From Haematomicrobium sanguinis DSM 21259 (GTDB taxonomy: Bacteria; Actinomycetota; Actinomycetes; Actinomycetales; Micrococcaceae): a DNA stretch of 64,000 nt. The translations under genes and the position numbers were made by a program. The stretch is from contig NZ_JIAG01000014.1 in NCBI RefSeq assembly GCF_000688395.1, forward strand, positions 1 through 64,000, written 5' to 3'. Shown here one piece after another: positions 1 through 41,256 of the stretch. The notes under the pieces were generated by a model. It did no database searches. It was given only the letters and a program-made list of their open reading frames with translations, and was not told the DNA's origin. Each line of letters opens with the position of its first letter. The stretch's first letter is position 1.

Positions 1-1
1 C

Positions 2-286
2 CCAGAGAACACGCAACTCTTCACCCGAACCGCCATACAACGCGGCGGGATCTCGGTGGCAGGGCACGTCTACGTCCTCGGCAAAGCATGGACCGGGCAA
101 ACGATCCACGTCATCCATACCCCGAACACCGTCGAACTCTTCACCCGCGAGGGCGAAAGCCTGATACTCAAACCCTGGCCCCCACCCAAATCCGTCAAAT
201 ACGAAGCCATCGCACGCCAACTCACCCACCCACACACCCGACACCACACACCCCACAAAAACTGTCCACTATGTATTGAGACCTAA
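2..286 (+). CDS. IS481/integrase-like transposase, C-terminal fragment
   Basis: The open frame enters from the left edge and stops with TAA at 284-286, so only about the last 94 residues are visible. The pattern (a VYVLGKAWTG segment, then NTVELF, then GESLILKPWP) resembles the beta-rich tail that follows the DDE integrase core in IS481-type transposases. The catalytic core lies outside the window. The last codons run into the first copy of a tandem 23-bp repeat, as expected if the transposase ends inside the terminal repeat of the element. The family call rests on a short tail and is moderate; element completeness cannot be judged. Confidence 0.55.
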   Translation, partial: PENTQLFTRTAIQRGGISVAGHVYVLGKAWTGQTIHVIHTPNTVELFTREGESLILKPWPPPKSVKYEAIARQLTHPHTRHHTPHKNCPLCIET

Positions 287-307
287 CTGTCCACTATGTA
301 TTGAGAC
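260..307. repeat. Tandem 23-bp direct repeat at IS end
   Basis: The 23-bp unit beginning AACTGTCCACTATGTATTGA occurs at 260-282 and again, identical, at 285-307, separated by CT. The first copy covers the end of the transposase reading frame. I infer an insertion-sequence terminus, possibly duplicated or two abutting element ends. The opposite end is outside the window. Confidence 0.6.
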
Positions 308-316
308 AGTACAGAC

Positions 317-357
317 CCCCATACGGCGAGGAAAATGCGGTACGGGGATGCGAAACG
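317..357. repeat. Palindromic repeat family A, copy 1
   Basis: Positions 336-357 are identical over 22 bp to the right arm of the large hairpin at 13667-13746. A degenerate left arm (317-327, two mismatches in 11) lies just before it, so this copy could form a compact hairpin. It sits between the IS end and the queuosine-precursor transporter gene. Confidence 0.7.
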
Positions 358-484
358 AGTAGAATGAGTTCGGCTCGGGTGGCAGACGGGCCGGACGTTA
401 GTCCCACACATTCATCAGCATCTTTCTTTGGGTTGATTGGCACGAGTCGCGCCTAGGCGACCCCACAATTACTGAAGGACAACA

Positions 485-4740: not shown

Positions 4741-5475
4741 TTAGAGGGCCTGATACCCGTAAAGGTCGGTCGGCTTTTCGTTGATCCAGATCGGCTTGCC
4801 CGGATGGTCTGGGTCCTCGAGCAACAGCGTCCTGCCATACGACTCATCCACAACGCTCCCGCGCAACCCCGCGCCTTCCAAGCGCTCGAGCAAGAGGTGA
4901 GCATCGCCGTCGTACTCCAGGCCAAATGCCGAGAGACTCTCGGTCGACGCAACCGAGGACCCCAGATCGTGATCCATCACCTGCCCGCCGCCCGGCGCGC
5001 TAAAGCTGATGAACTCGCCGTCGTTGGAACGCAACTGGGCGCGCAACCCAAGCGCGTCCAGCAGTTCCCCGAAGCGCGGCACGTCCCGCACAAACGCGAT
5101 CTGATTGACCGTCACTGCGGGGCTGTCAGAACCGGCCGGGATTGGGCCCCGCGCCGCATCCACCCAAAAGGACAACCCCGCCTCATATTCCACCCGCATG
5201 CTCATTCCGTGCGGCTGCTCGCTCACCTCGGCCGCGAACCCGGCCGACCGCACCGCCTCCGAAAGCGACTCAAGAGAATCGCTGGAAAACCGAAAATCGG
5301 TCGTCAAATGATAGGAATCCGCGGGGGTCGAGGCGTGCAGGGCAACCGACCCGGAGTCGGCCCCAAACACGCGGAAAGACGGGCTGTCATATGACTTCCG
5401 CAGCCCCAGCGCGAGCAGCAGCTCCTCATTCGCGTCCATGTTCGGCGTGTATCGAATTGGCGTGACCTTGATCAT
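4741..5475 (-). CDS. VOC/glyoxalase-fold protein, two modules
   Basis: The 244-residue protein is built from two VOC-like halves (about 1-115 and 120-240), each opening with a TPIRYTPNM- or [11 protein letters not shown]-like strand followed by a LLLALGLR or LLDALGLR helix. The family includes dioxygenases, glyoxalases and resistance proteins; function is unassigned. Its start ATG overlaps the stop of the upstream ribbon-helix-helix gene (ATGA), implying translational coupling. Confidence 0.7.
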
Positions 5476-7514: not shown

Positions 7515-7584
7515 GGTGGTGAGCTTACGCGGGGTGCGCGGGTGTTGGGGAGGTGCCGGAGCGTCAATGCGGCCAGCCGCTGTC

Positions 7585-7645
7585 CGCGACTTACCACGTG
7601 TGACGCTTATCCCCGTGCCATAAGCGTTGCACGTGGCAAGTCGCG
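7585..7645. repeat. Palindromic repeat family B, copy 1
   Basis: Two 26-nt arms (7585-7610 and 7620-7645) are inverted with 23 of 26 positions matching and a 9-nt loop. The outer arm CGCGACTTRCCAC is shared with the hairpin at 38184-38244. It lies between two co-directional minus-strand genes. Confidence 0.8.
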
Positions 7646-7698
7646 AAGTGGGTTGCGGCGCGGAGCGGGCGGAGCGGCGGAGTCAGGGCAGGGTCGCG

Positions 7699-12702: not shown

Positions 12703-13647
12703 TTAGCGGTTCGCCTGCTGCTGGTGCTGCGGCTGGGCGAGCGCGGCGGGGGTGTGTTTGAGAGTGAGCTCGCTTGTGAAGGTGCGGGTTTCGCCGCTGA
12801 GCGGGTCGGTGAACGTGATGCTTTTGGCGAGCAGTTGTAGCGGTTCTGCGTAGTTGTCGGGGGCCTCGTCGAGGAGGGTGGGGTAGTAGCGGTCGTTGAG
12901 GATGCCGAGCCCGAGTTTGCCCATGTGCTGGCGTAGCTGGTGGGTTTTGCCGGTGTGTGGGTAGAGGCGGTAGAGCGCATGGGTGCCGTCGGTGTGTGCG
13001 AGGTCGATGAGGCTTTCGGCGTTGGGCTCGCCTTCGAGTTCGCGGGAGAGCAAGTAGTCCTTTGTTTTGACGAGGCGGTTGCGGACGGTTTGCGGGAATT
13101 GTTGAGCGGGGTCGAAGCGTGCGACGGCCTCATAGGATTTGCTGACGAGGCGCCGCTCGAAGAGTTGCTGGTAGTCGCCGCGGGATGCGGGGTTGAGTGA
13201 AAAGAGGAGGACGCCGGCGGTCATGCGGTCCAGGCGGTGGATCGGGACAAGGTCCGGGAGGTTAAGGGAGGCACGCAGGCGGACGAGTGCGCTTTCCTTG
13301 ACGTACATGCCGCCGGGGGTGGTCGGCAGGAAGTGCGGTTTGTCGGCGACGAGGAGGTGGTCGTCGCTGTGCAGGACGGTGATATCGACCGGGAGCGGCT
13401 GCTCTTCGGGGAGTTCGCGGTAGTACCAAATGAAGGTGTGTTCGCCGAGCGGGGTGTCGCGCGTGAGCTTGACGCCGCCGATGCCTTGGACCTCGCCGCG
13501 GTCAAAGCGCTCGGCGATGCCGTCCGGGTCGACGTGGCGGAAGCGGGCGAGTAGATAGCCGAGAGCGGTACCCCATTCGCCCGATTCGGGGAGCCGGACT
13601 CGGGTGGCGTTGACGCCGTCGCGCACCGGGAGCGGGGATTTCATCAC
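12703..13647 (-). CDS. RluA-family pseudouridine synthase
   Basis: RluA-type enzymes convert uridine to pseudouridine in rRNA or tRNA. The catalytic aspartate is in PIHRLDRMTAGVLLFS (Asp140). The C-terminal RLYPHTGKTHQLRQHMGKLG segment is the second family motif. No S4 domain is evident at the N-terminus. It appears to be the first gene of a unit with the DedA gene. Confidence 0.9.
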   Translation of the reverse strand: MMKSPLPVRDGVNATRVRLPESGEWGTALGYLLARFRHVDPDGIAERFDRGEVQGIGGVKLTRDTPLGEHTFIWYYRELPEEQPLPVDITVLHSDDHLLVADKPHFLPTTPGGMYVKESALVRLRASLNLPDLVPIHRLDRMTAGVLLFSLNPASRGDYQQLFERRLVSKSYEAVARFDPAQQFPQTVRNRLVKTKDYLLSRELEGEPNAESLIDLAHTDGTHALYRLYPHTGKTHQLRQHMGKLGLGILNDRYYPTLLDEAPDNYAEPLQLLAKSITFTDPLSGETRTFTSELTLKHTPAALAQPQHQQQANR

Positions 13648-13666
13648 GGCTTCAGTCTAGTTCCCG

Positions 13667-13746
13667 CCCGCGTTTCGCATCCCCGTACCGCACTTTAAGA
13701 GGCATGTGCGGGGAAATTTTTGCGGTACGGGGATGCGAAACGCGGG
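13667..13746. repeat. Palindromic repeat family A, copy 2 (26-bp perfect stem)
   Basis: Arms 13667-13692 and 13721-13746 are perfect inverted repeats of 26 bp with a 28-nt loop. The core arm GCGGTACGGGGATGCGAAAC recurs at 336-357 and, with one change, at 41181-41201. A degenerate further arm (GGGGGTGCGAAACGCGGGAG) is at 13783-13802. It lies between two minus-strand genes. Confidence 0.85.
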
Positions 13747-13810
13747 AGGCGGCCGGGTGTGCGACGTGGCTGGTGGCCGTGCGGGGGTGCGAAACGCGGG
13801 AGGACGCGGG

Positions 13811-14266
13811 TTACTCGTGGTGGTAGGGGCGCCCGGCCGCGATCTCTTGTGCGCGGTACACCTGCTCGGCCAGGATGAGCCTGACCAATTGGTGCGGGAA
13901 CACCAGCGGAGAGAGCGACCAGACAAAGTCGGCTTTGTTGCGAAACTCGTCGGTGACCCCGTAGGCGCCACCGATGACGAAGCTGACTCGTTTGCCGAGA
14001 TCGAGTTGGCCCTGAACTCTCGCCGAGAGGGAAGGCGAGTCGATCGCTTTGCCGCGTTCGTCGAGAAGGATGAGGTAATCCCCTTGTGCTTTGGAAGCCA
14101 GCTTTTCGCTCTCAAGCTGCCGCGCGCCGTCGTACTCCAAATTCGAGTGGGGCACGAGTTGCCAGGTGAGATCCCATGGCTTCTTCAGCCGCTTTTCGAA
14201 ACGGGCGATGCCGTCGGAGACCCAGTCCTCGTGTTTGCGGCCAATGGCCAGCGCGCGCAGGCTCAT
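13811..14266 (-). CDS. rlmH: 23S rRNA pseudouridine-1915 N3-methyltransferase
   Basis: RlmH is a SPOUT methyltransferase that methylates pseudouridine 1915 in 23S rRNA. The 151-residue length and motifs ILLDERGKAIDSPSLSARVQ, VSFVIGGAYGVTDEF and LSPLVFPHQLVRLILAEQVYRA are diagnostic. Its ATG overlaps the stop of the thioesterase-like gene upstream (ATGA). Confidence 0.95.
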   Translation of the reverse strand: MSLRALAIGRKHEDWVSDGIARFEKRLKKPWDLTWQLVPHSNLEYDGARQLESEKLASKAQGDYLILLDERGKAIDSPSLSARVQGQLDLGKRVSFVIGGAYGVTDEFRNKADFVWSLSPLVFPHQLVRLILAEQVYRAQEIAAGRPYHHE

Positions 14267-28285: not shown

Positions 28286-28334
28286 TTTTCCCCACGGTTA
28301 GAGCGGGAGCGGCGAGCGCTGCTTCCATCACTTG

Positions 28335-28394
28335 GCAGGCCCAATTTAACGGTGCAGGCCCATATATGGGCCTGCACCGTTAAATTGGGCCTGC
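28335..28394. repeat. Perfect 60-bp palindrome
   Basis: Every base from 28335 to 28364 pairs with 28365 to 28394 about the centre CATATATG, with no loop. A further partial arm TAAATTGGGCC (28395-28405) directly repeats 28381-28391. It lies between two plus-strand genes. It lacks a terminator T-run and is longer than any ordinary operator. Confidence 0.9.
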
Positions 28395-28512
28395 TAAATT
28401 GGGCCCGCATTCTTGGGGCGCGCCACGGCGCAGGCGCCCGTTGCGCTGCAATTACTTAGCGCCCCAGTAGCGTCCCAGCATTGCCCGCGCCGCCATTGAC
28501 TAGACTGAACGC

Positions 28513-38173: not shown

Positions 38174-38183
38174 AACCTCACTC

Positions 38184-38244
38184 CGCGACTTGCCACACAC
38201 GACGCTTATTCCAGCGGCATTTCCGTGGTATGTGGCAAGTCGCG
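38184..38244. repeat. Palindromic repeat family B, copy 2
   Basis: CGCGACTTGCCACA (38184-38197) is perfectly inverted at 38231-38244. Beyond this outer 14-bp stem the left arm continues like the family B copy at 7585 (ACGCTTAT). It lies between the convergent pckG and GyrI-like genes and supplies the last codons and stop of the GyrI-like gene. Confidence 0.8.
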
Positions 38245-38874
38245 AGCGGTGGTGGGCTGTCGAAGGATGGTTTTGAGCTTTTCTGGAGCGGTGCGCCTCG
38301 GATCGGAGAGGTAAATTTCGTGGTGCTCGCCATTGAAGGTGAGCTCTAGGCCGGGCATGACCTCGTGGTGCAGGCGGTGGAGCGTTGGGGCTTCGGCATC
38401 GTAGGGTCCGATGTGCAACGTTTGCAGGCATTCGCCTTCGGTGATGGTCCGGAATTCTACGTCGGCCAGTCGCGGCACATCCTTCTTGGCGGCGAGAGTG
38501 TGGCGGGCGTGATCCACCTGATCTGCGGTAATCCACCCGGGTTGGTTAATGAGCATCGTCCAGGCCCAGGCATCCTTGTCCCGTGTGATGAAGACTTCCG
38601 GGTCATCGGCGCGCCATTGACCCTCAAGCGGGGCCACCACGTAATCACGCCGCAACTCCTGTTTGCTGAAGAACTTTAACGTGTACGAAAGTCCAAATAG
38701 CGCTTCCACGGCGAGTCGATACTGCTCCGAAGTATTGGGGTTGCCCTCACCGTCCAGGGCCAAATAGGTCATGGTCGGCACGTCAACCTGCGTAAATTCG
38801 TCACGCGGCGCGGAATAAAGAAAGCGTAGCGACTTTTTGACGTCAAACTTGTCCATGAGGCTAGTGTGGCTCAC
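38206..38874 (-). CDS. GyrI-like small-molecule-binding domain protein
   Basis: GyrI-like domains bind small molecules or inhibit gyrase. The 222-residue protein opens MDKFDVKKSLRFLYSAPRDE (from the second ATG, 38856) and contains DVPTMTYLALDGEGNPN and the LQTLHIGPYDAEAPTLHRLH motif. The final residues after RQPTTA come from the repeat family B palindrome, so the ancestral stop was probably replaced. The 3' end therefore differs from homologues. Next to a TOPRIM gene whose stop overlaps its possible first start. Confidence 0.8.
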   Translation of the reverse strand: MSHTSLMDKFDVKKSLRFLYSAPRDEFTQVDVPTMTYLALDGEGNPNTSEQYRLAVEALFGLSYTLKFFSKQELRRDYVVAPLEGQWRADDPEVFITRDKDAWAWTMLINQPGWITADQVDHARHTLAAKKDVPRLADVEFRTITEGECLQTLHIGPYDAEAPTLHRLHHEVMPGLELTFNGEHHEIYLSDPRRTAPEKLKTILRQPTTARDLPHTTEMPLE

Positions 38875-39449: not shown

Positions 39450-39522
39450 CTCCTCGACTGTGTAGCAGTTAATGCCCATCCGACCGGCGAGAATGGGCAT
39501 TAACTGCTACACAGTCGAGGAG
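39450..39522. repeat. 30-bp perfect inverted repeat between divergent genes
   Basis: Arms 39450-39479 and 39493-39522 pair perfectly over 30 bp around a 13-nt loop. The right arm ends 13 bp before the M81 peptidase start. Both flanking genes diverge, so a transcription terminator makes little sense here; the element must overlap or adjoin promoters or leaders. Confidence 0.9.
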
Positions 39523-39535
39523 ATAGGGTTGGGGT

Positions 39536-41176
39536 ATGCGCGAAACATCGGATGTCACCGCCAGCCTGCCCCGCCCGGACGCCTCCGAAATTTGGATGCC
39601 CCCGCTCCCGAGCCCCCACCCCGACGGCATCGCCAAACCACGCATCGGCATCTGCGGCATCTCCATCGAGTCCAGCACGTTCTCGCCGCACGTCTCCGGC
39701 GAGGAGGCGTTCACCCGCCGCGAGGGCCAAGATCTCCTCGACTTTTACAGCTTCCTCCAGCCCGCCGACGAGCTCACCCAGGCCGCCGAATGGCGCCCAC
39801 TCGTCCACTTCCGCTCGCTCCCCGGCGGGGCCGTCGACCCAGATTTCTACCAAGAAATGAAGGACGCCATTCACCAAGCGCTCCACCAGGAAATCGAAGA
39901 AAACGGTCCCCTCGACGGCCTCTTCTTCGACATCCACGGCGCCATGAGCGTCACCCAGATGTGGGACGCGGAAGGCGACCTGGCCGATATGGTGCGCAAC
40001 GCCGTCGGGCCTCAGACTCTTATCACCACCTCCATGGACCTCCACGGGAACGTCTCCCGGCAACTGCTGGAAGCCGTTGACCTGATCACCTGTTACCGGA
40101 TGGCGCCGCACGAGGACTACATGAACACCAAGGAGCGCGCGGTCTGGAACCTGCTCGATCGGCTGCGCGGCGAGCACGGGCGCGATCCGCAGGCCCGCCG
40201 CGTGCACAAGGCGTGGGTGCCGGTGCCCGTCTTGCTTCCGGGCGAGAAAACCTCCACGCGACTGGACCCGGCGGCCTCACTGTACGCGGAACTTCCGCGC
40301 ATTGAAGCGCAGCCGGGCATCACGGACGCCTCGATCTGGATTGGCTACGCGTGGGCGGACGAGCCGCGGTGCATGGCATATGTGGTCGTGACCGGGGATG
40401 ATGCCGAGCTCGCGGCGCGCGAGGCCGAGGCGCTGGGCCGCCAGTTCTGGGATGCGCGCGGCGATTTTCGGTTTGTCGGACCGGCGATGCCGCTGGAGCA
40501 GGCGGTGGATCGGGCGCTCGCCTCCAGCGCGCGCCCGTTCGTCATTTCGGACTCGGGCGACAACCCGACCGCGGGCGGCACGGGGGACGTGACCTGGACG
40601 GTCGCGCGGCTTCTGGAGCGGCCCGGGTTTGTGGACGCGGTGCGGGCCGTGCACGCATCAATGTACGACGGCGATGCCGTGGCTTCCGCATTTAGCGCCG
40701 GCCTGGGTGCCGAAATAGTAGTAGATGCGGGGGCGCGCGTGGATGGTGTGTGGGAGGGGCCGGTGACCCTGCGCGGAGAGGTGTATTCGCTGAGCGAGGG
40801 CGATCAGGTCGCCGGGCGGCAAGCGGTGATTCGGGTGGGGCCGGCCGGGGACGACGGAGCAGGTAGCTCGGATCGCGGGCTGTACGTGATCGTGACCGAG
40901 CGCCGGAAGCCCTTCCACCATCTGGAAGACTTCCGATCGTTGGGTCTGGATCCGGAGAGCTTCGACGTGGTGTTCGTGAAAATCGGGTACCTGGAGCCCG
41001 AGCTATATGCGCTCGCCGACGGGGGCAGGAACTGGATCATGGCGCTGACTCCGGGCGGGGTGGATCAGGATTTGTTGCGCCTGGGCCACTCGCATTTAGC
41101 CCCGGGCGTGTTCCCTTTCGAGGACGTGGAGGAACCCGCGGGTGGGTTGCGCGCGGCGGTGCATCGGCGCGACTAG
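39536..41176 (+). CDS. M81-family (MlrC-like) metallopeptidase
   Basis: MlrC-type enzymes cleave small peptides; the name comes from microcystin degradation. The 546-residue protein has IGICGISIESSTFSPH, the metal-associated FFDIHGAMSV, MDLHGNVS and MAPHEDYM segments, then DNPTAGGTGDVTW. The N-terminal ~35 residues (Pro-rich) are extra. No signal peptide, so cytoplasmic. Substrate unknown; it may process imported peptides. Confidence 0.85.
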   Translation: MRETSDVTASLPRPDASEIWMPPLPSPHPDGIAKPRIGICGISIESSTFSPHVSGEEAFTRREGQDLLDFYSFLQPADELTQAAEWRPLVHFRSLPGGAVDPDFYQEMKDAIHQALHQEIEENGPLDGLFFDIHGAMSVTQMWDAEGDLADMVRNAVGPQTLITTSMDLHGNVSRQLLEAVDLITCYRMAPHEDYMNTKERAVWNLLDRLRGEHGRDPQARRVHKAWVPVPVLLPGEKTSTRLDPAASLYAELPRIEAQPGITDASIWIGYAWADEPRCMAYVVVTGDDAELAAREAEALGRQFWDARGDFRFVGPAMPLEQAVDRALASSARPFVISDSGDNPTAGGTGDVTWTVARLLERPGFVDAVRAVHASMYDGDAVASAFSAGLGAEIVVDAGARVDGVWEGPVTLRGEVYSLSEGDQVAGRQAVIRVGPAGDDGAGSSDRGLYVIVTERRKPFHHLEDFRSLGLDPESFDVVFVKIGYLEPELYALADGGRNWIMALTPGGVDQDLLRLGHSHLAPGVFPFEDVEEPAGGLRAAVHRRD

Positions 41177-41180
41177 TTCC

Positions 41181-41201
41181 GCGGTACCGGGATGCGAAAC
41201 G
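41181..41201. repeat. Palindromic repeat family A, copy 3 (single arm)
   Basis: GCGGTACCGGGATGCGAAAC plus G differs from the 13.7-kb arm by a single base. It sits 4 bp after the M81 stop. Only one arm is present. Confidence 0.7.
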
Positions 41202-41256
41202 AGGAGAGGATTTGGCAAAAGGGCTTCACAAATAGTGTTCCAGGTCACACAATGGG

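Follow-up and report, generated by a model that had tools for sequence, protein, structure and literature searches.

The palindrome at positions 13664 to 13749 of the window (the whole analyzed stretch of 64 kb from Haematomicrobium sanguinis DSM 21259) is a complete copy of a dispersed element, here called family A, with a total of about 45 copies in the genome. Copy number, fixed geometry, location, the different conservation of arms and centre, the predicted hairpin, the existence of a sister family (family B), and the targeting of the dyad by an IS481-type insertion sequence (IS) form the observed base of this study. With moderate confidence, we interpret these elements as lineage-specific REP/ERIC-like dispersed palindromes, i.e., hairpins at the 3' ends of genes, which probably serve as bidirectional terminators or as guards of mRNA 3' ends.

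The element represents a nested palindrome of 86 bp (covariance-type model match R1, E 9e-22), located between rlmH (13811-14266, minus strand) and a pseudouridine synthase gene (12703-13647, minus strand). The preliminary description had reported a perfect 26-bp stem at 13667-13746, and this proved correct: the left arm CCCGCGTTTCGCATCCCCGTACCGCA (13667-13692, minus strand) is the perfect complement of the right arm TGCGGTACGGGGATGCGAAACGCGGG (13721-13746, plus strand; arm search of the window), and both 26-nt arms enclose a variable centre of 28 nt (13693-13720), which is the IS481 target region in other family-A copies. In a search with 21 arm bases, allowing up to three mismatches, five matches were detected within the window vs 0.01 in shuffled sequences. 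The exact copy of TGCGGTACGGGGATGCGAAACG previously recorded at 336-357 is indeed present, not as a free-standing copy but as the right half of an IS-interrupted element. Two further arms had also been described. The near-exact one at 41181-41201 matches TGCGGTACGGGGATGCGAAACG with one mismatch over 21 bases and belongs to a single family-A arm (41181-41204, plus strand, E 2e-5), which follows the stop codon of the gene at 39536-41176 at a distance of 5 nt. The degenerate one carries three mismatches to TGCGGTACGGGGATGCGAAACG (13776-13796) and is part of a half copy located 3' of rlmH (13776-13803, plus strand). A possible distant relative, a nested palindrome at 2535-2594 with an inner TTTTCATCCC/GGATGAAAA module and other arms, remained below the threshold (E 0.059). 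An Rfam search of the window returned tRNAs only and nothing for the palindromes.

The analysis was then extended to the whole genome, a draft assembly of 2.93 Mb in 27 contigs (99.99% complete), and confirmed an amplified, dispersed, and extragenic palindrome of fixed size, far above chance: the 16-base arm core TACGGGGATGCGAAAC gave 86 matches with up to two mismatches, compared with one for the reversed control. In total, the genome contains 40 full copies, far more than had been reported, in addition to four that an insertion sequence has split and a few halves. Every one of the 36 arm pairs that stay within the permitted mismatches has a spacing of 57, and these pairs, together with four slightly degenerate copies, align gap-free across 86 columns, with flanks that are unrelated between the dispersed copies. 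The resulting consensus reads CCCC[T/G]CGTTTCGCATCCCCGTACCGC-ATTTTCAGAGCCGTATACGGCTCTGAAAAT-GCGGTACGGGGATGCGAAACG[A/C]GGGG. Within the arms (columns 8-21 and 25-28), merely 3-4% of the halves per site deviate from this consensus, compared with 25-39% in the centre, which is composed of the recurrent half-types TTTTnnGAGCC, AAAAATTGAGCC, and TTTTCATCCCC in roughly random combinations. Centre halves of the same copy are no more alike than halves from different copies, arm halves of the same copy only slightly more so (p 0.016), and, along the full length of the hairpin, covariation slightly exceeds that in shuffles (85.3% vs 84.1%). Hairpin pairing alone is thus insufficient to account for the conserved arm sequence, and the family-A arms are conserved as sequence, beyond pairing.

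A search of the genome with the centre alone led to the discovery of family B, comprising 13 copies of 74 bp with the arms GCAAATTTAAGCG...CGCTTAAATTTGC, always 61 apart, and the centre TTTTCAGCGCC[.]TATA[.]GGCGCTGAAAA. The mid-stem of family B varies among the copies, being mostly paired within each copy, and covariation is found in columns 16-18 and 20-21 (paired 0.77-0.85 vs 0.49-0.63 expected). Both families have different arms and a similar centre, TTTTCAG[A/C]GCCGTATA. Furthermore, two additional family-A copies on contig C10 (C10:44,375-44,484 and approximately C10:117,540-117,620) have the centre replaced by an unrelated palindrome, in one case by an inverted pair of TACGACGGCG; in these copies one arm is degenerate. 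Because of family B and the two swapped-centre copies, the palindrome modules appear to be exchangeable, a handful of cases pointing in this direction. Taken further, families A (86 bp) and B (74 bp) and the swapped-centre copies might all be variants of one modular type of nested palindrome: a similar centre, also the IS landing site in family A, would be combined with interchangeable arm sets, and some machinery other than a RAYT or a known transposase would copy the units from one stop codon to the next; we regard this broader proposal as speculative and rather unlikely.

The 10-mer TACGACGGCG is in itself the most over-represented one of the window, with 14 copies on both strands (positions 4905, 5832, 7124, 9069, 12122, 14125, 19904, 20649, 30484, 30860, 36050, 40664, 63712, and 63819) compared with 0.1-0.2 expected. 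Twelve of these are located inside genes, in several frames, the remainder between genes, and in one place two neighbouring inverted copies form a terminator-like hairpin. On genome level, TACGACGGCGATGC gave 291 matches with up to one mismatch (control 1) and is also enriched in some genera of the family (60-74). By analogy, TACGACGGCG brings to mind DNA uptake sequences or some other signal spread over the chromosome. A third palindromic repeat of 64 nt, TCCGCGACTT[A/G]CCAC...GTGGCAAGTCGCGA, is found at 7583-7646 and 38182-38245 (77% alike) and again at the start of contig C18. Two very long, near-perfect hairpins between genes, at 28332-28397 (33-nt arms, no loop) and 39450-39522 (30-nt arms, 13-nt loop), belong neither to family A nor to family B.

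The gene context of all A and B copies was evaluated with a simple codon-usage gene finder and compared with random placements in the intergenic DNA of the window alone, so that the following figures are approximate. For 43 of 53 copies (31/40 of family A and 12/13 of family B), a gene directed towards the element has its stop codon no more than 25 nt away, compared with 10.2% of the random placements, and the distance is mostly 0-1 nt for family B. Convergent gene pairs are enriched (24 of 53 copies vs 21% of placements), while divergent regions, i.e., promoter regions, are depleted (2 of 53 vs 34%). Structurally, the predicted RNA hairpin reaches z = -7.2 on one strand and -9.0 on the other, and in being stable, GC-rich, and placed right after a stop codon it resembles intrinsic terminators. 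A U-tract following the stem was found neither at the window copy nor in the consensus flanks, and a consensus-terminator scan revealed none. The initial view of an element "rather than terminators" is nevertheless not supported, the elements being positioned tightly behind stop codons like 3'-end hairpins, though they lack a U-tract.

Family-A units are nested inverted repeats with a fixed length of 86 bp, in which conserved outer arms (CGTTTCGCATCCCCGTACCGC) flank a variable, roughly palindromic centre. Mostly placed immediately behind stop codons and often common to two convergent genes, they would form one long hairpin upon transcription of either strand. Their most likely role would be that of a bidirectional 3'-end signal, combining transcription termination or attenuation with protection of mRNA 3' ends. 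The copies would have spread as units along some route, and the conserved arms may be read by a protein.

The left edge of the window revealed an additional aspect of these elements. An IS481-type insertion sequence reaches into the window with its right end, which occupies 1-313 (plus strand), includes the C-terminus of the transposase (2-286) and, at 263-282 and 288-307 (plus strand), two end boxes TGTCCACTATGTATTGAGAC, and terminates in ...AGTACA. It is directly followed by the right half of the split family-A element (314-360, plus strand), in which 314-329 represents the target-site side of the centre (GACCCCCATACGGCGA). The doubled end box (TGTCCACTATGTATTGAGAC, CTAAC, same box) was found at ten contig ends, i.e., at five left and five right junctions, in agreement with five copies of the N-terminal transposase part. 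Its 79 amino acids matched NF033577 with E 1.8e-5 and 24 bits, a fragment match below the whole-protein cut-off, and the C-terminal piece gave no family match in a comparison covering the two ends of the IS. Eight of the ten junctions adjoin the family-A centre at the identical base, and four of the five genomic copies split family-A elements at the same dyad position. The target duplication amounts to 16 bp, which within the family-A element is the central palindrome, and is exact at three of the five copies: GAGCCTCACACGGGTC (C9/C20-start), GAGCCGTATACGGGTC (C20-end, ambiguous between two left junctions as it fits both C10 and C12), and ACCACATTTTCGCCTC at C18/C6, where the fifth copy resides in a non-element site. 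The junctions C4, C14, and C16 have no duplication partner, perhaps due to recombination between IS copies. Most likely, the family-A dyad serves the IS481-type element as a safe landing site.

In respect to the origin of the copies, the preliminary description of an amplified non-coding element holds, whereas its mobility had been deduced from copy number only, and we found no target-site duplication: direct repeats of 2-9 nt flanking the elements at offsets of 0-17 showed nothing convincing above pairings of different copies. This bears directly on the possibility of a selfish, MITE-like element, the arms of which would be terminal inverted repeats for a transposase acting in trans and the copies of which would survive where they are harmless, just behind genes. 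Terminal inverted repeats are present, and the constant length, the conserved ends around a variable middle, the ~45 dispersed copies with unrelated flanks, and the absence from nearly all other genera fit this idea. However, besides the missing duplications, a larger element bearing these arms did not turn up, and fixed-spacing pairs or halves account for nearly all arm matches; lone arm pairs at IS distance were not seen in the draft assembly of 27 contigs, and at 0-25 nt from stop codons the copies cluster more tightly than would be needed just to avoid genes and promoters. Overall, we consider a MITE-like origin unlikely. Somewhat less probable still is a function as chromosomal binding sites, with each arm as half-site for a DNA-binding protein (a nucleoid protein, gyrase, or condensin loader) kept between genes to spare expression. 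It would explain an arm sequence constrained beyond pairing needs, halves that evolve nearly independently, and the half-site spacing fixed at 57 bp, but no such protein was identified, family B occupies the same kind of place with quite different arms, and the tight link to stop codons is left unexplained.

An inverted pair of a conserved ~22-mer at fixed spacing, dispersed over many extragenic palindromes and with rare single arms, resembles the organization of REPINs (PMC3116915), which are moved by RAYTs. The suspected RAYT link did not withstand the search for the RAYT/Y1 transposase (Pfam PF01797), with no match in the 99.99%-complete genome and positive results in five control genomes. 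In addition, the single arm is not self-palindromic (folding at -1.5 and 0.0 kcal/mol), and neither a GTAG nor a CGTC terminal tag occurs at the ends of the family-A consensus. The REPIN/RAYT reading, failing in two defining features, i.e., a RAYT in the genome and a self-palindromic, tagged REP unit, was rejected because of the missing RAYT/Y1 and the missing flanking target-site duplication, and we regard it as highly improbable.

To cover the distribution in related taxa, a covariance model built from the 40 family-A copies was run on the genomes of relatives. Among 38 other genomes of the order, three diverged matches were detected, all of them in one other genus (G003; E 6e-9 to 2e-3), along with a borderline match outside this genus; among 295 genomes of the family (32 genera), matches were confined to the own genome and G003. 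Relatives thus do contain further matches, albeit weak ones in a single genus, in a comparison between genera. The three G003 copies are located between convergent reading frames, touching or nearly touching their stop codons, and this suggests that the stop-codon location is older than the amplification, although these weak matches could in part be convergent GC-rich hairpins. Arms of the GGGGGTG type occur in relatives in few copies, and an amplified family was not found there. A scan of 84,980 genomes, a set that may not include the own and nearest genomes, for the arm pair GTTTCRCATCCCC-N30-60-GGGGATGYGAAAC gave no match, and BLAST of the element returned merely two 26-base matches at chance level among plasmids (E 0.9) and none among phages. 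The closest RlmH proteins were found in Arthrobacter species (69% identity), too distant for an empty-site comparison. An Arthrobacter-like RlmH, 64% identical to that of the window, is also encoded on WNZI01000007.1, titled Vibrio cholerae strain 35D, which probably reflects contamination or mislabelling of that assembly.

Comparison with known systems places our preferred reading, a REP/ERIC-like palindrome acting at gene 3' ends, between several established types of elements. Like the REPs and REPINs of Pseudomonas and E. coli, family A consists of dispersed, extragenic, hairpin-forming inverted motif pairs at fixed spacing and is targeted by a specific insertion sequence (PMC3116915, PMC3733652). 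It differs in being one 86-bp nested palindrome tightly behind stop codons, without a RAYT and with non-palindromic arms lacking the GTAG tag. Insertion sequences targeting REPs (IS1397, ISKpn1, IS621, ISPpu9, ISPsy8, and ISRm22) were assigned to the families IS3, IS110, IS4, IS256, and IS5 in a 2006 survey, with IS481 not among them (PMC1525189). In these cases, too, an IS enters a dispersed palindrome at a single defined site, so that the present case is a variant and its kind not new; what differs is that the inserted element is of IS481 type and duplicates 16 bp of its target, adding to palindrome targeting an IS family outside that survey (PMC1525189). Bidirectional intrinsic terminators between convergent genes likewise form a long, GC-rich hairpin common to two 3' ends; family A differs by the missing U-tract and by a sequence and length conserved across ~40 unrelated loci, as a dispersed repeat. 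ERIC (IRU) elements of enterobacteria and vibrios are long imperfect palindromes of ~126 bp and near-constant length in transcribed intergenic DNA, for which no transposase is known. Family A is also a long palindrome of near-constant length between genes, differing from the ~126-bp ERIC in sequence and phylum, and, tRNAs aside, the window has no Rfam match. While REP-type repeats with RAYTs are chiefly proteobacterial, we here describe an actinobacterium in which a RAYT was not found and which harbors two related palindrome families with a similar centre, very close behind stop codons. The old question on such repeats, selfish DNA or recruited 3'-end signals, thereby becomes directly testable.
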